Shown here: one piece after another, positions 1-24,799 of the stretch
Layout of the letters: each line of letters begins with the position of its first letter
Numbering within the stretch: the stretch's first letter is position 1
Assembly: GCF_000170755.1 (NCBI RefSeq)
Contig: NZ_ABCK01000038.1
Span: 1 to 35,935, forward strand
Length of the DNA stretch: 35,935 bases
Reading direction: 5' to 3'
From: Lentisphaera araneosa HTCC2155
GTDB lineage: Bacteria; Verrucomicrobiota; Lentisphaeria; Lentisphaerales; Lentisphaeraceae
Made by a program: the position numbers and the translations under genes
Notes under the pieces: generated by a model
Told to the model about the DNA's origin: nothing
The model's input: only the letters and a program-made list of their open reading frames with translations
Database searches by the model: none

Positions 1-154
1 TTCCCTGAATCTAAATTGACATAAGTCCAAGGCCACTCTTTGACCTCCTTTACTAGGCCCGCTTTGACTGGATTATCTAGAATATAATGAATGGCCGTAC
101 AAAAATGTTTTTTCATCTCGAATAAATCGATCCCAATAATCTTCCATCCATATC

Positions 155-253
155 TCCCCTGGGCGCGCGGGCGGCTCGCCCGCATTATTTCCCTCCAGCT
201 GATTTAAGTCCCCTGGGAGCGCGGGCGGCTCGCCCGCATTATTTCCCTCCAGC
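155..253. repeat. Two tandem REP-like units inside the RAYT reading frame
   Basis: Two 45-bp units (155-199 and 209-253) differ at one base (164 C against 218 A) and start 54 bp apart, exactly 18 codons, so the frame is kept. Each contains the 17-bp imperfect palindrome GCGGGCGGCTCGCCCGC (167-183 and 221-237). In the host gene they encode EGNNAGEPPA followed by LPG or RPG, placed between the family segments IKKIL and WMEDYWDR. Confidence 0.9.
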
Positions 254-511
254 AAAATCTTTTTGATTTCATGACTGGTATAACTTTTCCACGAATGCAC
301 CACACGATTTAAGCAATGATTTTCGTAAGTCTTAATCAAAAGATGAACGTGATTCGGCATCACTACATAAGCAATGAGGTCATAACGTTCATCATCGAAA
401 TGTCGCCAATTATCCACCACAACTTGTGCTATCTCCGGCCGTTTTAAATAACATGCTCCATAAGATTGATCGAGATATTTTTCGATAAGCTTTCGTTTTT
501 GGGTTTTTTCA

Positions 512-535
512 GCGGGCGAGCCGCCCGCGCTCCCA
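512..535. repeat. Inverted REP-like unit inside the RAYT reading frame
   Basis: The palindrome core at 512-528 (GCGGGCGAGCCGCCCGC) is the exact reverse complement of the cores at 167-183 and 221-237, and the adjoining GCTCCCAG continues the match. It encodes the AGSAGGSPAEKT stretch of the transposase, again without breaking the frame. Confidence 0.85.
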
Positions 536-711
536 GCAATGACATGCTTAGGTAAACTATCGGCTAAACGGTAAGTAATCATTTGGTATTTATTCGCCAC
601 ATCGTAATTAGGCAAAAATCCTCGGCTATGCCAAGCTTCCCTGTTTTCAAATTCTGGTCGTCTCATTTAAACCTCCACTCAGAAAACCTAATCCCTCGCA
701 AATAAGGAAAC

Positions 712-1014: not shown

Positions 1015-1587
1015 TTGAATACATACGTCACCAGTCACACTTTGCTTACCCGAACGATGGATCATGAAGATTCGGAAGCCTGGGAAGTTTTTGTCGAGCG
1101 CTATCACCGCTACATCTACAAATTACTGGATAAACTTGGCGTAAAAGAGGAAAAAGACGACGTTTCTCAGGAAGTCATGTTAACGATCTGGAAAAAGTTA
1201 GATACCTATGACCGAGAACGCTCTAAATTTCGGACTTGGCTTTCTTCTATCATTCGTATTACCGTCTTGAAAAGCTGGCAACAAAAGCATAAAAAGCAAA
1301 ATATTGATGGTGGTGACAGTCTGCATGGTATTCCAGATGAAAAATCATTTATGGATTTTGCAGAAGAAGAATGGAAGCATTTTATCATGCAGAGAGCCAT
1401 GGATAACATCAGCAAAGATTTTAAAGGAAAAGCCATGGAAGTTTTTCAGTTAAGTTTAAGTGGCTTGACTGTTGATCTAATTGGCGACAAGCTGGAGCTC
1501 AGCAAATCATCTGTCTATACCCTCAAAAAAAGAGTAAAAAAACGCCTTTTAGAGGAAGTTTATTTCTTACAGAAAGACATGGGCTAG
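1015..1587 (+). CDS. Sigma-70 family (ECF-like) RNA polymerase sigma factor
   Basis: A 190-residue sigma factor directing RNA polymerase to a dedicated promoter set. Region 2 spans roughly residues 20-90 (EAWEVFVERYHRYIYKLL, then DVSQEVMLTIWKKL and FRTWLSSIIR). Region 4 is near residues 125-185, with the helix-turn-helix around LSGLTVDLIGDKLELSKSSVY. I chose the TTG start because AGGA lies 5 bases upstream and because the N-terminal SHTLLTRTMDHEDSEAWEVF resembles the TLLxR lead of PVC-group sigma factors; an ATG at codon 15 would remove it. The stop is one base before the start of the Ser/Thr kinase, so the two are almost certainly co-translated. No anti-sigma factor is adjacent, so the kinase is the obvious candidate regulator (inference). 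Confidence 0.9.
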   Translation: MNTYVTSHTLLTRTMDHEDSEAWEVFVERYHRYIYKLLDKLGVKEEKDDVSQEVMLTIWKKLDTYDRERSKFRTWLSSIIRITVLKSWQQKHKKQNIDGGDSLHGIPDEKSFMDFAEEEWKHFIMQRAMDNISKDFKGKAMEVFQLSLSGLTVDLIGDKLELSKSSVYTLKKRVKKRLLEEVYFLQKDMG

Positions 1588-1588
1588 C

Positions 1589-3607
1589 ATGAGCGATTCC
1601 TATAATAAAAATCTGCTTGATCTCTTTGATATCGTCGAAACTGGCGACGATAATAAAATAGCCAATAATCCCGACTGCGAAGAACTCGAAAATATTGAGA
1701 ATCGTTACGACAAGCATGAACTCGCCGGCCAAGGCGGTATAAAAAAAGTTTGGGCGGCAAAAGATAACTTCTCAAAAAGGATTATTGCCTATGCCGAACC
1801 CCGCGACGACATCCACCCGGTATTTTACGATAGCCTTTTAAAAGAAGCCTGGCTCACTTCCTCTCTGCAGCATCCTAATATCATCAAGATTCATGATGTC
1901 GGCATAAATAGCGATCAAAAGCCTTTTTTCACCATGGACTTTAAGCGTGGCCAAAACCTGGCCTCTTGGCGATTTGCGCAGAAAAAAATTGACTTGGATC
2001 AATGTCTCGACATCTTTTTAACTACCTGCGAAGCCATCGAACACGCTCATTCCAAAGGCATTATCCACCTCGACCTTAAACCGGAAAATATTCAGCTCGA
2101 TTCCTTTTCAGAAATAGTTGTCTGTGATTGGGGTATGGGACAGAAAGTATCTGATGCTGAAATGAGTTCATCTAAAGAAATCTCTGAACTTTCCGAAGCG
2201 ACGGAGAGCACTATTGGCGGTACGCCTGGCTTTATGGCACCAGAACAAATAAAACGGGACGAAACTCCTACTCAAGCTGCAGATATATACGGTCTTGGAG
2301 CCCTGCTTTATTATCTCATTAGCGGAAAAAGGTGCCATGAAGGAGAATCGGCAGAAGAGCTGATAAAGTCTACTTTGGAAAATACTCCGAGAAAATTACG
2401 CGAGCGCTTTCCTGACTTAAAAGTTTCCAAAACTCTCGATCAAATCATCCAGCGCTGCTTACAGCTGAAAGTTAGTGAGCGCTACCAATCAGTCAGTGCC
2501 ATTATAGATGATTTGCGTTTATTCTTAAAACAACGACCAACAAGTTTTGAAAATGAAAATAAACTCTTCTGTACCTGGCTATTCTATAAGAGACAAAACT
2601 TACTTTGTAACTTAGCCTTGGTCATCTTGCTTATTGTAAGTCTAAGTGTCAACTGGTTTTCTCAGAGGATTCAGGCCGAAGCCCAGCAACGCCAACTACA
2701 GGAAGTCAGAGCTTTAAAAGCTGAAAACAAAGCTCTTCTTGCAGAGGATGAAATTCAGCGCAAAATTGAAGAAATTTTTAAAATTAGAGACCAAAGCCGC
2801 GAACAAAAAAAAGCCAAAGCCAATGAACTGAATGATCTGGTAGACAATATAAAACGTAGGACTATGTACTTAAAAACCAAGGAAGCAGTTAATATCATGG
2901 AGGAATTATCGAGCTTGGCTATGACACTGGACCCCGACTCTCATATGGCCAAACATCAAATGGCCGAAGTCCACTTCATTCAACTCAACACGGCTGAAAC
3001 CAAGAGAATGCTCAAGCACTACACGCCGGATTCAGATAAACTTCTGCAAGTCTTTCAAGACTGCCCATCCTTAAATTTCACTAGACATAAACGCCCTTCA
3101 AAGCAAGAGCTTATAGATTTCTTAAAAGCTATAAATTACAATGGACATGGTCATATTTTAGCTCAAAGGGTTATACTATACGATTATGAAATACGAAGCG
3201 AATTCAAACCCGTTAAAGATTATGAGGGTGTAGTTCAAGCTTATTTTGAGGCTGGGGCCCAAGCCATGGCATCTTTTGTCTACGATTACGACAAAGCCAA
3301 TCGCCGCTTGACTCTTAATGTTCATAATCCAGATAAAAACAATCCTGCGCCAAGATTATTTTTAACCCAATACCTTGATCTGGATACTCTTGTCCTGAAA
3401 GGCGACATCTGTAACTTAACCGGCTTAAGACGTGCAAAAATCACCACCCTGGACATTTCTCAGCACTTACCCTTTCTGACTATAGAAATTGATCGTAATC
3501 TTTATAACCACCCAACACTCAAAACTATTATTTTAAAATCCGGAAGCTACCCCGAATCCGTCATCAATCGACTCAAGAGTTTTTACGAACTCGTATTTAT
3601 TCCCTAG
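1589..3607 (+). CDS. Membrane-anchored Ser/Thr protein kinase with WNK-like lysine placement
   Basis: A 672-residue receptor-like Hanks-type kinase. The kinase domain is about residues 40-315: Gly-rich loop GQGGIKKVW (47-55), alpha-C Glu86, HLDLKPEN (160-167, so HLD replaces HRD but the catalytic Asp162 is kept), DWG (180-182) and APE (217-219). The beta-3 site that normally reads VAIK reads IAYA (66-69), so the usual ATP-anchoring lysine is absent. Lys52 in the Gly-rich loop occupies the position used by eukaryotic WNK kinases. A single membrane helix is near residues 337-355, followed by a coiled coil (about 358-405). The C-terminal part, presumably outside the cytoplasm, includes a TPR-like piece (about 425-480) and Leu-rich segments at the end. 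It follows the sigma gene by one base. Catalytic activity is plausible but unproven. Confidence 0.9.
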   Translation: MSDSYNKNLLDLFDIVETGDDNKIANNPDCEELENIENRYDKHELAGQGGIKKVWAAKDNFSKRIIAYAEPRDDIHPVFYDSLLKEAWLTSSLQHPNIIKIHDVGINSDQKPFFTMDFKRGQNLASWRFAQKKIDLDQCLDIFLTTCEAIEHAHSKGIIHLDLKPENIQLDSFSEIVVCDWGMGQKVSDAEMSSSKEISELSEATESTIGGTPGFMAPEQIKRDETPTQAADIYGLGALLYYLISGKRCHEGESAEELIKSTLENTPRKLRERFPDLKVSKTLDQIIQRCLQLKVSERYQSVSAIIDDLRLFLKQRPTSFENENKLFCTWLFYKRQNLLCNLALVILLIVSLSVNWFSQRIQAEAQQRQLQEVRALKAENKALLAEDEIQRKIEEIFKIRDQSREQKKAKANELNDLVDNIKRRTMYLKTKEAVNIMEELSSLAMTLDPDSHMAKHQMAEVHFIQLNTAETKRMLKHYTPDSDKLLQVFQDCPSLNFTRHKRPSKQELIDFLKAINYNGHGHILAQRVILYDYEIRSEFKPVKDYEGVVQAYFEAGAQAMASFVYDYDKANRRLTLNVHNPDKNNPAPRLFLTQYLDLDTLVLKGDICNLTGLRRAKITTLDISQHLPFLTIEIDRNLYNHPTLKTIILKSGSYPESVINRLKSFYELVFIP

Positions 3608-3786: not shown

Positions 3787-5238
3787 ATGAAATTAAAAAC
3801 GCAAGGAACTAACATGAGATTTTTTACCTCTATCGCATTCTTCATATGTGCTGCATTACACGCCGCAGAAAGGCCGAATATTTTATGGATTGTTGTGGAG
3901 GATATGTCATCCCATTTTAATTATAATGGCGAAAAGCTGGTCCATAGCCCACATGTCGACCGCCTAGCCAAAGAAGGTCAAGTTTTCACCAATGCCTACA
4001 TTACCGCGCCTGTTTGTTCTGCAGCAAGATCAGCCATGATTACCGGCATGTATCAGACTGCCATTGGAGCTCATCACCACAGGAGTTCACGGGGAAAAAT
4101 AAAAATCCACCTGCCCAAGCACATCAAAACAATTCCGGAACTCTTTAAAGCTGCCGGTTACTACACCTGTAACGGCAGTGAGCACCCTGGGAAATACGGT
4201 AAAGAAGACTACAATTTCTCCTTCAAGAAAAGTGATCTCTACGATGGCCCTGACTGGTCGGGCCGTAAAAAAGGTCAGCCCTTTTTCGCTCAGATTCAAT
4301 TGCGCGGCGGCAAAATTCGCAATGTCGATAAGTGGTATAAGCAAATTGAACCCGCACTTACAAATGTGATCAGCAAAGATCAGGTCGAGTTACCCCCTTA
4401 TTACCCGGATGTAGAAGCTTTTAAGCAGGACTGGGCCATTTATTTGAACAGCGTGCAGTATACCGACCTGGAGGTCGGCAAAATCATGCAGCGCCTTAAA
4501 GAAGATAAGCTCTTAGACAACACCATCATTTTCTTTTTAACTGACCACGGTATCAGTCAAGCAAGAGGAAAACAATTCTGCTACGATGAAGGTGCTAAAG
4601 TCCCCTTCATCGTCTGGGCTCCCCAAAAATTAAAACCCAAGCTACGCGAAGAACTCATTGCTCATATAGATATGTCTGCTAGTTCTCTGTATTTTGCCGG
4701 CATTGATATCCCCGCTTACATGCAGGGCAGAACTCTATTTGGAGATCAGGCTCAGCAGCGCAATTATGTTATTTCAGCTAGAGACCGCTGCGATGAAACC
4801 GTTGACCGCATTCGCAGTGTCCGCTCAGGGGACTTTAAATACATTCGCAACTTTTATCCAAAGCGCCCTCATCTCCAGCCTTGTCAGTATAAAGATGGGA
4901 AGCCATGGATGCCCGTCCTTCGACAATTACAGGCCGAAGGTAAATTAAATGATCTACAGGAAAAGCTTCTTTTTTCTCCTACCCGACCTGAGGAAGAGCT
5001 TTATGAATTATCTTCAGACAAATGGGAGCTGAAAAATCTCGCAGGCGACCCGAAGTATAAAAATAAATTGCAGGAGATGCGCTGTATATTGGCCAACTGG
5101 ATTATCGAATCAGATGACCAAGGACGTTTTCCTGAAGCTGAAGAACAATACGATAGTGACATGGCCGCAACCAGAAAATCAGAGATAAAAGACAAAAACA
5201 TGGCTCTGATGAAAAAATGGCAATCTGAAGGTAAGTGA
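3787..5238 (+). CDS. Secreted sulfatase (formylglycine-type, N-sulfoglucosamine sulfohydrolase-like)
   Basis: A 483-residue type I sulfatase that hydrolyses sulfate esters or sulfamates on polysaccharides. It has an N-terminal signal peptide (hydrophobic core about 11-26, probable cleavage after ALHA), then [12 protein letters not shown], where E38 and D39 sit at the metal-binding position. CSAAR at 77-81 fits the formylglycine motif C-x-(P/A)-x-R with Cys77 as the modified residue. TDHG further on supplies more metal ligands. EDMS and IGAHHHRS resemble heparan N-sulfatase-like sulfatases of PVC bacteria, but the true substrate cannot be read from sequence. Two ATGs have ribosome sites: 3787 (AAAAGGA upstream) and 3814 (AAGGA upstream). 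The second gives a more usual signal peptide. No maturation enzyme lies nearby. Confidence 0.93.
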
Positions 5239-5500: not shown

Positions 5501-5588
5501 GTAGACATATAAAGTCTGATCAGATTGGATAAAATTTGTATTCAATTTTTATTTGTCGTAAATTCTGAAAAAATTGAGGAGTTTAATA

Positions 5589-6062
5589 ATGGGGAAGTCA
5601 TTATCTCAAATTTATATTCATACTATTTTTCATATAAGCTTTAGTGATCCTGTGAAAATACCTAATTCACTACAAGATGATTTACATAAATATATAGCGG
5701 GACATTGTAAATCCGAGAGTTGTATACCTATACTTATTAATGGTACAGAAGACCATATTCATTTATTGACTTCTTTATCGAAATCAATAAGTGCTTCATC
5801 CTTCGTTAATAAAATTAAAAGTACTTCTTCCAAGTGGATAAAATCTAATTCGCATGAGCATGGTTTAATTTTGAAGAAATTTTCATGGCAAAAGGGCTAT
5901 GGAGTTTTTTCTGTAAGCCCGAGTATTTTAGATAAGGTGAAAGCCTATGTAGAAAATCAACAAGAGCATCACAAACGCATGACTTTTAAAGAAGAATACA
6001 TGATGTTTCTTGAGCAGTATAAAATTGATTTAGATGATGAGAAATATTTGTGGGTTGATTGA
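5589..6062 (+). CDS. IS200-like / REP-associated Y1 transposase
   Basis: A 157-residue HUH single-strand transposase. TEDHIHLL gives the metal-binding pair H56 and H58, and KAYVENQQEHHKR contains the catalytic Tyr120 in the YxxNQ context usual for IS200-type enzymes. All expected elements are intact and the length is normal. I chose the ATG at 5589 because GAGGAG ends 8 bases upstream; an in-frame TTG at 5574 lies just before that ribosome site. The gene is strikingly AT-rich compared with its GC-rich flanking repeat blocks (5308-5500 and 6069-6387), which are probably the single-stranded hairpin substrates it recognises (inference from the RAYT/REP relationship). No tnpB-like accessory gene is present. 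Confidence 0.92.
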   Translation: MGKSLSQIYIHTIFHISFSDPVKIPNSLQDDLHKYIAGHCKSESCIPILINGTEDHIHLLTSLSKSISASSFVNKIKSTSSKWIKSNSHEHGLILKKFSWQKGYGVFSVSPSILDKVKAYVENQQEHHKRMTFKEEYMMFLEQYKIDLDDEKYLWVD

Positions 6063-6772: not shown

Positions 6773-8113
6773 TTAAAAGCGACGTTTTCTGATCAGCAGA
6801 CCCTTGAGTTTTTTCTCGGGGATAGCGGTGTAAACTTCGAATTGAACGGATTCGTGATGCTTGGGGTTATTGCGTTGGTTGGCACTATCGAGAATGACTC
6901 CTTCAGCCGTAAAGGTATTATAACCGGGTGGGATATCCCAGGCAATAACGGATGTTGCGTGAGCCGCAATTCCAATGGGGTAATCTATACCATTGACGCG
7001 CAAGGGACCGCCATATATGCCACCATTCACTTCGACCTCAGCATAACCAGCTTTAGTAATTTTCATGGGAAGTTCAGTGAGGCTGAGTTCACCTGCGGGG
7101 CCAATGATTTTTGGGTCAATCCATGCTGAGTGGTCATGATTTTGGCCATTGCCACCGTTACTGACCACTAGATAGAGTGAGCGGGCGCCATGGAGTTCAA
7201 CTTCGATGTCAGTCTTTTTGTCGGGTGTGAAGTAGGTGACAAGTGGACTCTTGTAAAGTGGCTTAGTGTTTCTGTTGAGTTCTAGAGATTCGTCTTGGCT
7301 AGCTGAGGCATAGTGATCGGCTTCGACCATAACGGATTTTTCGCTTTTAATTTTGTTATAGCGTACAGCACCTTCGGTAACATCCAGTAATGAGGAGACA
7401 TTTGAAGAGGATAGGGTGAATTGCGTGCCAATAACCTCACATTCTGAGTGCTCGGTGGTGATGATCATGTCTTTGCCGAGTGGCTGCTTTGCGATGTCCG
7501 CATCGAGCACGCCTGAGAAGAGCTCGACGCGTTTTTGACCTTTTATATCGCTAAGACGCACAAAGGACTGGCTGGAAAGTTTAAGCGTGGAGCCATCCAG
7601 GTACTTCATGCCCAAAGAACTTTCATTCTGGACGTAGATTTGATCCTTGCTATAGAGTGGGTCGCCTTTGCGGATGTTGACTTTTTCTTTTCCGCGCAAG
7701 ACAAAGCTATCGAAGCCCACTTTATCCACATGGCCAATCAAGACTGGGGGAGCTTCGGCTACTTTTGCGGGGGTGAGGATAAAAAAGAGAATGGGGATGA
7801 GAATGATTTGCGCTGCCACTGCTCGTTTAAACCAAACGGGGAATTTGTGAACCTTGGGCTCGGGAAGTTTTTCCATAATCTGATCTTCCATGCCGGAAGT
7901 ATCAATTTCCAAGTGGTTCATGATTTCTTCTTCGAGGGCATGAAATTTAGGGCGCTGGGAAGTGAAGATGAGGCCCTTGATTTCCATGGCGAGGTTGAGT
8001 TCTTGGACGAGCTCGGGGTCTTCTCGTAATTCTTCTAGGAAGCTGATGAGTTCCTGTTCGGAAAGCTCCCCATCCATATATTTTTCGATGGTGAGTTTTT
8101 GCTGATTATTCAT
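6773..8113 (-). CDS. FecR-family anti-sigma-like membrane protein with C-terminal NPCBM-like domain
   Basis: A 446-residue regulator paired with the adjacent ECF sigma factor. The N-terminal cytoplasmic part (1-95) has an anti-sigma/zf-HC2-like start (EKYMDGELSEQELISFLEEL) without an obvious Zn motif. A single membrane helix lies near 97-114. A FecR domain spans about 130-265 (LSSQSFVRLSDIKGQKRVELFSG, then VIGTQFTL and DVTEGAV). The C-terminal part, about 285-435, is NPCBM-like: LYLVVSNGGNG, DHSAWIDPKI, then YPIGIAAHATSVIAWDIP. NPCBM domains are carbohydrate-binding modules of glycosidases, so the likely signal is a glycan outside the inner membrane (inference). Its start overlaps the sigma stop by 8 bp (ATGAATAA), indicating coupled translation. 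Confidence 0.87.
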   Translation of the reverse strand: MNNQQKLTIEKYMDGELSEQELISFLEELREDPELVQELNLAMEIKGLIFTSQRPKFHALEEEIMNHLEIDTSGMEDQIMEKLPEPKVHKFPVWFKRAVAAQIILIPILFFILTPAKVAEAPPVLIGHVDKVGFDSFVLRGKEKVNIRKGDPLYSKDQIYVQNESSLGMKYLDGSTLKLSSQSFVRLSDIKGQKRVELFSGVLDADIAKQPLGKDMIITTEHSECEVIGTQFTLSSSNVSSLLDVTEGAVRYNKIKSEKSVMVEADHYASASQDESLELNRNTKPLYKSPLVTYFTPDKKTDIEVELHGARSLYLVVSNGGNGQNHDHSAWIDPKIIGPAGELSLTELPMKITKAGYAEVEVNGGIYGGPLRVNGIDYPIGIAAHATSVIAWDIPPGYNTFTAEGVILDSANQRNNPKHHESVQFEVYTAIPEKKLKGLLIRKRRF

Positions 8114-8648
8114 GACGGAGTTCTGCGCTTAGGCAGTCCTTGATATTTTTTCTGATTCTAAAGAGTTTTGAGCTGATGGCGTTTTCGGTACTATTAAGGC
8201 GCTCGGCTAAGCTAATCACAGTTTCGTTAGTGTAGTAACGGGATTTGATGATTTCCAAGGCATCTTCGGGGAGTTTGGCAATACAGCTCTGGATATGCTC
8301 CAGCTTGCGTTCACGATCGGGGTCTTCGTCACAAACTTCGGCGACGAGATTTTGGATTTCTTCCTCAAAGGCAAATTTGAGATTTTTCTTAGAATAAGTC
8401 TTTCTCAAATGAGAGTTGAGTTTATTTCGAGCAATGGTGAAAAACCAGGTGCGGAAGTCGTATTTGGGATCAAACTTTTCAATTGATTGAAAAACGGCAA
8501 TAAAGATTTCCTGTGATAAGTCTTCCACAAGGTGGAAATCGCTGAGGCGCCCCGCCAAGTAAGAGCGCAGAGAGGGGGCGAGTTGACGCACGAGTAGGCG
8601 GTACTTATCCGTATCCCCTTGGCGTATCTCATTAATTAATTCATTCAT
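8106..8648 (-). CDS. ECF-type RNA polymerase sigma factor
   Basis: A 180-residue group IV sigma-70. Region 2 spans about residues 8-75 (YRLLVRQLAPSLRSYLAGRL, then EDLSQEIFIAVFQSIEKF and YDFRTWFFTIARNKLNSHLR). Region 4 spans about 115-175 (IAKLPEDALEIIKSRYY, then VISLAERLNSTENAISSKLF). It is the first gene of a two-gene operon with the FecR-NPCBM protein, which probably holds it inactive or activates it on ligand binding, as in FecI/FecR-type pairs. The promoter is probably in 8649-8773, which is AT-rich. The start codon has only a weak ribosome site (GGGACG). Confidence 0.92.
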   Translation of the reverse strand: MNELINEIRQGDTDKYRLLVRQLAPSLRSYLAGRLSDFHLVEDLSQEIFIAVFQSIEKFDPKYDFRTWFFTIARNKLNSHLRKTYSKKNLKFAFEEEIQNLVAEVCDEDPDRERKLEHIQSCIAKLPEDALEIIKSRYYTNETVISLAERLNSTENAISSKLFRIRKNIKDCLSAELRHE

Positions 8649-22576: not shown

Positions 22577-22723
22577 AGATATTTTTACGAGCTTTTGATA
22601 AAATCTTGAATTAATTGCAGTAGCTTCTTTATGAAGTTGATGAAAGCGACTTTGACGAATTGCTTTCTCCTAAAAATCTATTCAATTATAATCAATTATT
22701 TGAATTTAAATGTTGGTGTTGTT

Positions 22724-24799
22724 TTGCGTTTTAAATGTACTTCTTGCGGGCAGGCTGTTTCAGTAGATGACGGCAAGCCAGGGGAAGCGGTCCAATGTGG
22801 ATCGTGTGGGACGGTTCTCAAGGTTCCGAAGCCATTTGAAAAAGGTTATATCATTGGAGACTTTTGTGTTGAAGAACATATTGGTTCAGGCCGCATGGGT
22901 GAGGTTTACAAAGCCTATCAAGAAACGTTGGTTCGCGATGTAGCCTTAAAAGTTTTAGATAATGATATGGCCGAGCACTCTGAGCATATTTTGGAATTTT
23001 TCAAAGAAGCTCGAGTCGCCGCACGTTTAAATCACCCCAATATTGTACAAGCCTATTCTGTAAATGAAGAAGGTGGGTATTACTACCTAGTTGTAGAATA
23101 TGTATTTGGTCAAAACTTAAGGCAATTAATTGACGATAGAGGTAAATTGCCAGTTAATATGACCATACGTCTGTTGTCACAGATTGCTCATGCACTGGAC
23201 TATGCGTGGACTTCTGAAGGCTTACCTCACTTAGCGGTGAAGCCTGAAAATATTTTGATCGACTCGAAAGCTCAGATCAAAATTTCTGATATTGGTTTAG
23301 CAGGGTCACGATCGAGGTTTTCTGATGGAGATTACAAATACTCGAGTCCAGAACAGATACTTAATTTAAAAGCTGATACACGTGCAGATATTTACGCACT
23401 GGGGATCACAGCTTACGAGGCCTTAACGGGCAATGTTCCTTTTGATGGTAATATCAAAGATGTGAATAAAAAACATTTAGAAGAAGAGGCTTTGCCAATT
23501 AAGGAGCTAAATCCTTCTGTCCCTAAGGATTTAGTTACGGTCATTACTAAAATGATGTCAAAGCACCCTGATGATCGCTACATGAGTTTCGGTGATCTAG
23601 CTAAAGACCTCCGCCTCTTGAGACGCTATGCTGGAGATATGAGCACGACTTCTAGCTTTTCTACTAAAATTTTTAAAACGCGATTTAGCTTTACGGAAAA
23701 GAGGAACCAACAAAGGAAGAAAAGTTTACGGCTACAGGCTTTTACTGCTTTAGTGACGGTCATGTTGTTGATTGGGATCATTGTTTTTAATAGCGATAAA
23801 TCAGTGGATAAGACAGTGAAAGTCGATAAAGGGGATAAGAAACGTTTAGCAGAATTTGCTGTTCTATCTCAGTCAATTGATAAAAGTGTAAGTTCAGTAG
23901 AAGCGTTTACTTTATTTAAGAAAATTGAGGCCTTTTTAGCAAGATATCCTAGTTCACCACAAGCCGAAGAATGTTTAGAATGGCGTGAAGCCGTTTTGGA
24001 GATTTTGATACGAGAACGACGTCAAAATGAATTTTTTAGTGAGGAATCTACTCTAGCAGAAGAGGAGGAGGATGATCTTTTGGCTAATTCAGAGCAAGGC
24101 TTTGTTAGTCAAGACTTGGGAGAGCTGGCTCTTCAAAGTGAACGAGATAGTATGAGAAGGGATATTCTTAGGTTTTACTTAGGAAGGAAAGCTAGTACTG
24201 AACTGTTAACATTCTTGAAAAATAGTGAAGCGTATGATCCTATTTGGTCGGAGCAGATGACAAATATTATTGTTCAGGCAAACGAAGTGCGGAATTCTTT
24301 AGTAGATGAAGACAGCTCCTTGCAGGGTTTGTTGATCAAGCATGGGAAAGATGAAGTCGAAGTACGTTCCATTAAGAGTGATATTCTTATGGGGGTGGTT
24401 GATGGTGAACTTAAAAGTTTAAGTTTAAGTACCTTTGGCTTAAAGAGCCTAGAGTCCTTATTGGCCATTAGTTCTGAGTTCCCAAGAGAAGGGGCATTAA
24501 GTTTATTGTTTTGGTACAGGAATTTTCAAAAGTGTAAACTTAATGAAGGCGTTGAAATGTCTGAATTTGAAGTGTTCTTGGTAGATGAGGCAAATCGTAT
24601 GGCCAAATTTGATTTTGAGAATTATTTAAACGAAGCAAAGAATAGTTGGCAAAGGAATGAAGCTGGTTCTGCTAGGGCACAAATTGTCGCTTTAAAGAAA
24701 AAATATGAAACGAGTGATCTTTATAAACTCAACAAAAAGAGAGTTGACTCTCTAGAAGAAAAAATTAAAAAGAGTGTGAGTCGACGTGGAAAGAAATGA
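22724..24799 (+). CDS. Zinc-ribbon Ser/Thr kinase-like protein, probable pseudokinase
   Basis: About 691 residues. An N-terminal zinc ribbon (C5-x2-C8 and C25-x2-C28) precedes a Hanks-type kinase domain (about 45-300). The Gly loop GSGRMGEVY and VALK Lys76 are normal, and DFG reads DIG (Asp189). The catalytic loop reads HLAVKPEN (169-176): Ala171 replaces the HRD aspartate, and the activation segment is very short with no obvious Thr. I infer weak or no phosphotransfer. One membrane helix lies near 338-355. The C-terminal part is helical and charged (LAEEEEDDLL), ending KKSVSRRGKK. I chose TTG 22724 so the protein starts at the zinc ribbon; an ATG at 22631 would add an odd hydrophobic leader. 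Neither start has a clear ribosome site. Confidence 0.82.
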   Translation: MRFKCTSCGQAVSVDDGKPGEAVQCGSCGTVLKVPKPFEKGYIIGDFCVEEHIGSGRMGEVYKAYQETLVRDVALKVLDNDMAEHSEHILEFFKEARVAARLNHPNIVQAYSVNEEGGYYYLVVEYVFGQNLRQLIDDRGKLPVNMTIRLLSQIAHALDYAWTSEGLPHLAVKPENILIDSKAQIKISDIGLAGSRSRFSDGDYKYSSPEQILNLKADTRADIYALGITAYEALTGNVPFDGNIKDVNKKHLEEEALPIKELNPSVPKDLVTVITKMMSKHPDDRYMSFGDLAKDLRLLRRYAGDMSTTSSFSTKIFKTRFSFTEKRNQQRKKSLRLQAFTALVTVMLLIGIIVFNSDKSVDKTVKVDKGDKKRLAEFAVLSQSIDKSVSSVEAFTLFKKIEAFLARYPSSPQAEECLEWREAVLEILIRERRQNEFFSEESTLAEEEEDDLLANSEQGFVSQDLGELALQSERDSMRRDILRFYLGRKASTELLTFLKNSEAYDPIWSEQMTNIIVQANEVRNSLVDEDSSLQGLLIKHGKDEVEVRSIKSDILMGVVDGELKSLSLSTFGLKSLESLLAISSEFPREGALSLLFWYRNFQKCKLNEGVEMSEFEVFLVDEANRMAKFDFENYLNEAKNSWQRNEAGSARAQIVALKKKYETSDLYKLNKKRVDSLEEKIKKSVSRRGKK

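Follow-up and report, generated by a model that had tools for sequence, protein, structure and literature searches.

A WNK-like relocated lysine, apparently convergent, in a family of transmembrane kinases from Lentisphaera and related bacteria

How a protein kinase might work without the beta-3 lysine, which is a hallmark of the Hanks type, is the question raised by a gene of Lentisphaera araneosa HTCC2155. It lies in a window of 35,935 nucleotides (the whole stretch of DNA analysed here, contig NZ_ABCK01000038.1), directly behind the gene for an ECF sigma factor, and its product combines the absence of that lysine with other features of Hanks-type kinases: the Pkinase fold and the HxDxKPxN and DxG motifs. 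The initial annotation of this DNA had proposed that the lysine has moved into the Gly-rich loop, as in the WNK kinases of eukaryotes. The features on which the argument depends are these:

1015..1587, forward strand: ECF sigma factor of 190 aa, one base upstream of the kinase gene (Sigma70_r2, 4e-13; TIGR02937, 2e-19)
1589..3607, forward strand: kinase gene, an ORF of 672 aa for a transmembrane Ser/Thr-type kinase with a relocated lysine
1694..2548, forward strand: kinase domain, approximately residues 36-320 (PF00069; AlphaFold)
1727..1750, forward strand: Gly-rich loop GQGGIKKV, with Lys52 (1742-1744) at the third Gly
1781..1795, forward strand: beta-3 segment IIAYA, with Ala69 (1793-1795) at the position of the VAIK lysine
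1844..1846, forward strand: alpha-C Glu86, invariant, within the model helix 77-91
2066..2095, forward strand: catalytic loop HLDLKPENIQ, with Leu161 at the HRD Arg position, Asp162, Lys164, Asn167 and Gln169
2126..2134, forward strand: DWG metal-binding motif, with Trp181 at the position of Leu369 in WNK1
2600..2659, forward strand: transmembrane segment, approximately residues 338-357, read from a hydrophobic stretch of the sequence
2660..3604, forward strand: predicted C-terminal extracytoplasmic sensor region (AlphaFold, full length)

A domain search with the 672-residue protein places the match to PF00069 (Pkinase) at residues 40-301 (E=9e-37). In the full-length AlphaFold model (pLDDT 80, pTM 0.48) a long helix, residues 337-374, spans the predicted transmembrane segment, and the sensor region follows in the order of long helices, a helical-repeat block (approximately 386-559) and a short strand/helix repeat (approximately 563-671); this C-terminal layout is kept in relatives. 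An N-terminal kinase, one transmembrane segment and an extracellular C-terminus are shared with the Hanks-type, PknB-like kinases, although these possess the beta-3 lysine and have a small amino acid at the loop position, and the PASTA repeats are absent from the window kinase.

Translation confirms the residues on which the proposal was based (G47-Q-G49-G-I-K52-K-V54, I65-I-A67-Y-A69, D162, N167 and D180), and the numbering first given for Lys52, Ala69, Asp162, Asn167 and the DWG aspartate is exact. Lys52 occupies the third glycine of GxGxxG and Ala69 the site of the beta-3 lysine; in an alignment with PknB that is gapless from the loop to beta-3, K52 faces a serine and A69 faces the catalytic lysine. 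The WNK1 motifs given in the initial annotation agree with the deposited sequence, a stretch of 60 residues that contains them being identical, letter for letter, to the WNK1 chain in the PDB. In the window kinase and in WNK1 alike, the beta-3 site lies 17 residues after the loop lysine, ungapped, and the WNK-like arrangement claimed for this protein stands. An AlphaFold model of the kinase domain (pLDDT 89.7 from a 37-row alignment; model residue + 25 = protein residue) has K52 as the first residue of beta-2; A69 falls within beta-3 (64-71) and E86 within helix C (77-91). The WNK lysine is likewise described as lying in beta-2 in a 2025 review of bacterial pseudokinases (PMC12599244).

The arrangement is not peculiar to this gene. 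The 6.02 Mb genome has 105 Pkinase matches, and 61 of its kinases are swapped, with the lysine in the loop and alanine at beta-3. The paralogues and relatives that were read first fell into two states without exception. For a wider tally we added the best loci from named genomes, 289 genomes of the same phylum, ten chosen genomes and 294 genomes drawn as Planctomycetota. This yielded 271 non-redundant kinase domains, of which 151 combine the loop lysine with beta-3 alanine and 119 combine the beta-3 lysine with Gly, Ala or Ser in the loop; no domain has both lysines, and the only one with neither is degenerate. Homologues with a GGxK loop and no beta-3 lysine, on which the initial annotation had wished to see its alignment checked, are thus plentiful, and the canonical relatives carry lysine at the aligned beta-3 position, never together with a loop lysine. 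Although the relatives are only about 30-50% identical to one another, K52, A69, E86, H160, D162, K164, N167, D180 and G182 are invariant in all 151 swapped domains. The beta-3 residue is alanine in every swapped domain, never the cysteine of the WNK type, and all 107 canonical DWG relatives have lysine there. Arg64 is also invariant, equally so among the canonical relatives; among the positions examined, no invariant basic residue other than Lys52 sets the swapped clade apart. Since both residues are invariant in 151 relatives, chance or misalignment is ruled out as the source of the Lys52/Ala69 arrangement. A further swapped paralogue of this genome (L028, G000:C7:244019-245518) carries a TAA codon in frame that separates its N-lobe part from its catalytic-loop part.

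Is the enzyme then alive? The orthologue in L. marina is about 80% identical to the window kinase, and dN/dS between the two is 0.12 for the full coding sequence and 0.10 for the kinase half alone. These low values rule out a decaying gene and indicate that it is kept for its protein function under purifying selection. In the L. marina copy (L125, in genome G002, ~2175) the frame is broken by a single additional base close to codon 148, perhaps through an error of sequencing, perhaps through loss of the gene there in recent times. From the invariance of the alpha-C glutamate, HxDxKPxN and DxG, taken with Lys52, we infer that the enzyme is active and that Lys52 stands in for the beta-3 lysine, both in contacting the ATP phosphates and in the salt bridge to Glu86. 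A contrary explanation is that catalysis was lost with the beta-3 lysine and that the family now serves as a ligand-controlled scaffold, holding or releasing the sigma factor. The beta-3 lysine is indeed absent throughout, the HRD arginine is lost and position 169 is polar, and bacterial pseudokinase families with changes at beta-3 are known (PMC12599244). Nevertheless, one would hardly expect an inactive enzyme to keep every catalytic residue (Asp162, Lys164, Asn167, the DxG aspartate and the alpha-C glutamate) at such low overall identity, with a compensating lysine at the WNK position; the bacterial pseudokinase families described are without such compensation and most have lost several motifs (PMC12599244). 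We therefore consider a pseudokinase family unlikely, in keeping with the original view that this is no simple pseudokinase.

The family differs from its canonical relatives in more than the lysine. The HRD arginine position is leucine (Leu161) in 97% of swapped domains. Position 169 is methionine in 89% of canonical relatives, as against Gln (57%), Arg or His in the swapped clade, and Thr262 (94%) is among the strongest of the further differences. The tryptophan of DWG, found in 99% of the swapped family, is common to the canonical relatives too. Position 169, two past the catalytic asparagine, we take to be equivalent to Leu173 of PKA, a C-spine residue located beneath the adenine ring. Polar side chains are unusual at such a position and, as far as sequence can tell, the nucleotide pocket differs beyond the lysine. 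Coupled changes at K52, A69, L161 and residue 169 could be read as the remodelling of the pocket for another nucleotide or another reaction, such as AMPylation, in place of ATP-dependent Ser/Thr phosphorylation, yet the phosphotransfer set of HxDxKPxN and DxG is unchanged, and we regard such a switch as improbable.

The resemblance to WNK had also suggested a link with chloride, through sensing of the ion in the vacated pocket. In WNK1, chloride is bound by the backbone amides of Gly370 and Leu371 and surrounded by Phe283, Leu299, Leu369 and Leu371, and the substitution L369F makes the kinase insensitive to chloride (PMC7606576, PMC13397483); the displaced lysine has been proposed to permit chloride binding (PMC7606576), and in the inactive form the alpha-C glutamate bonds with the HRD arginine (PMC1821047). 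A marine host genus might lend the idea some appeal, but neither of the WNK contacts is kept: the swapped family has the DWG tryptophan at the position of Leu369 and leucine at that of the HRD arginine, in the proportions given above. Nor is the tryptophan an adaptation around an anion, since canonical relatives commonly have it. This part of the initial annotation is not supported, and chloride sensing of the WNK kind seems very improbable here.

The origin of the swap was examined in trees made up of bacterial kinase domains. A quick tree of 123 domains placed the swapped set on one side of a single branch. The trait columns could themselves drive such a grouping, so the loop, beta-3 and HRD-Arg columns were removed for later trees. 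Without them, a quick tree of 172 rows required two changes, the sole intruders, inside or beside the swapped clade, being L047, L054 and L137 (the sequences of L047 and L137 are identical), which are canonical kinases with HLD; a careful tree of 74 rows required one change of lysine label. In the latter, support is strong for the swapped clade joined with these three (100/92) and moderate for the swapped clade by itself, with the three as its sister (81/57). As the nearest outgroup, with HLD in place of HRD and the beta-3 lysine retained, L047, L054 and L137 look like a stage that possibly preceded the swap, although they may also be reversals from the swapped state. The swapped clade, as placed by these sequences, fits a single origin. 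It follows that the 151 sequences represent no more than about one event; they demonstrate a lasting constraint, not 151 independent tests of the coupling between the lysines.

Since this clade nests, in trees of bacterial domains, within the canonical DWG kinases, much the most probable explanation of its likeness to WNK is convergence, one of the two possibilities (parallel or convergent) first raised for this gene. The closest solved sequences are those of PknB-type bacterial kinases (E 5e-27) and the closest fold is that of PknB (Z 33), with WNK among neither the best 60 sequence matches nor the best 50 fold matches. Homology to WNK finds no support in these results, and true kinship, for instance by gene transfer between bacterium and eukaryote, seems very improbable, for all that the position and spacing of the lysine are identical, given PknB-type best matches and a clade that sits beside sequences with HLD and a beta-3 lysine.

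WNK1-4 of eukaryotes and the swapped kinases thus share a lysine at the third loop glycine, the lack of one at beta-3 at a distance of 17 residues, the alpha-C glutamate and the catalytic aspartate. They differ in that the swapped family is bacterial, spans the membrane once and clusters with bacterial kinases, and has alanine instead of cysteine at beta-3, HLD instead of HRD and DWG instead of DLG, with loss of the chloride-pocket residue. According to Kannan et al. (2007, PMC1821047), no functional ePK family other than WNK lacks the beta-3 lysine, and the CAK-chloro group shows an analogous shift of charge; the bacterial pseudokinase review cites WNK and POMK as examples (PMC12599244). POMK and CAK-chloro likewise draw a positive charge from the Gly-rich loop, but lack the alpha-C glutamate that the swapped family keeps: POMK has no alpha-C Glu and has DLD instead, while CAK-chloro has a loop arginine and Phe for that glutamate (PMC1821047, PMC12599244). 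In the parts consulted, the review lists no bacterial family with a WNK-like lysine (PMC12599244), and we found none in the searchable literature, where the 42-family classification was covered through the review of pseudokinase families. A WNK-type relocation in bacteria is apparently undescribed, and the relocation seems to have arisen twice independently.

Swapped kinases occur in Lentisphaerota, in Kiritimatiellota (Pontiellaceae and others) and in some Verrucomicrobiia; two Verrucomicrobiota lineages that have them are an Akkermansiaceae MAG, with about 35 related matches in its genome, and strain JB023. In other Planctomycetota, in Myxococcota and in Thermodesulfobacteriota, the top-scoring loci that were read are canonical; the sampling favours such loci, so that rare swapped cases elsewhere are possible. 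The genome G340, drawn as Planctomycetota, gives no fewer than eight strong matches to the swapped profile, and the one that was read (L258) is swapped; this may reflect transfer or a mis-binned MAG.

What might such a kinase act upon? The ORF coordinates bear out that the kinase gene starts one base past the sigma factor ORF, and the pairing recurs: in this genome a sigma gene lies directly upstream of 35 of the 61 swapped kinases, as against 1 of 17 canonical ones. The remaining 26 adjoin sulfatase, prepilin-like or other genes, or lack a long same-strand ORF immediately upstream. Phosphorylation of the sigma factor is established for PknT and EcfP and has been proposed for more groups, several of them in Planctomycetes, in which the acidic region 2.2 is kept (PMC8999054); PknS, described as a typical Hanks-type kinase, phosphorylates its paired sigma EcfK (PMC13147305). 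In EcfP/PknT and EcfK/PknS, as here, an ECF sigma gene stands beside that of a membrane Ser/Thr kinase with no anti-sigma gene between, and the Planctomycetes sigma-kinase groups ECF59, 61, 62 and 217 likewise have sigma and kinase genes adjacent without an intervening anti-sigma. By analogy, the swapped kinases probably phosphorylate the paired sigma factor. All 66 paired sigmas have an acidic residue (D/E) at position 49 in region 2.2 (DDVSQE in the window sigma), unlike the ECF43 sigmas, in which a phosphorylatable motif takes the place of the acidic (DAED) one. Thr6 is invariant in the paired sigmas and position 9 is Thr or Ser; these may be candidate phosphorylation sites, or may be structural. 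Listed sulfatases occur within 5 kb of 20 of the 61 swapped kinases, with 13.7 expected (p 0.03, from an incomplete list), and in view of this weak enrichment a sulfatase regulon is kept as a guess.

Elsewhere in the window, a different sigma pairing is seen on the reverse strand at 6773-8648, where an ECF sigma gene is followed by that of a FecR/NPCBM membrane protein. At 22631-24799 (forward strand), adjoining Kdo-kinase and glycosyltransferase genes, there is a second Ser/Thr kinase-like protein of 722 aa with an N-terminal LysW-like zinc ribbon; it keeps VALK and DIG but has HLAVKPEN for HRDxKPxN, the catalytic aspartate being replaced by alanine, and from these motifs it looks like an ATP-binding pseudokinase. 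Small ORFs at 73-666 (reverse strand) and 5574-6062 (forward strand) resemble, by eye, REP-associated or IS200-type transposases (motifs PNHVHLL and DHIHLL).

The explanation that we favour, and hold to be rather probable, is that the swapped proteins are active transmembrane sensor kinases that use Lys52, have reached the WNK solution independently and act on the paired sigma factor. We propose that the lysine gripping the ATP phosphates would have moved once, in an ancestor within Verrucomicrobiota, leaving beta-3 for the site of the third loop glycine. An extracytoplasmic signal, received through the helical-repeat sensor region, would switch the kinase on; the kinase would phosphorylate the upstream ECF sigma, or stimulate it by another phosphorylation-dependent route; and the sigma would then turn on nearby genes, possibly including the sulfatase at 3787. 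Against this stand the changes at position 169, the 26 of 61 kinases without a sigma gene and the retention of an acidic region 2.2, unlike ECF43.

A bolder version, to which we would give only a small chance, is that the WNK site evolved independently together with coupled changes at four positions of the pocket (the loop lysine, the beta-3 alanine, HRD Arg to Leu, and C-spine Met to Gln, Arg or His) and that the pocket so vacated has its own regulatory ligand or nucleotide. If that were true, every one of these sensor kinases would have a second input built into its remodelled pocket. Pipelines that score the VAIK lysine would mislabel the whole swapped family as dead. Because canonical sisters resemble a pre-swap stage, the route of the relocation is open to test: the clade could reveal which change came first, whether an intermediate with two lysines or with none is viable, and whether a vacated pocket always brings ion sensing with it.
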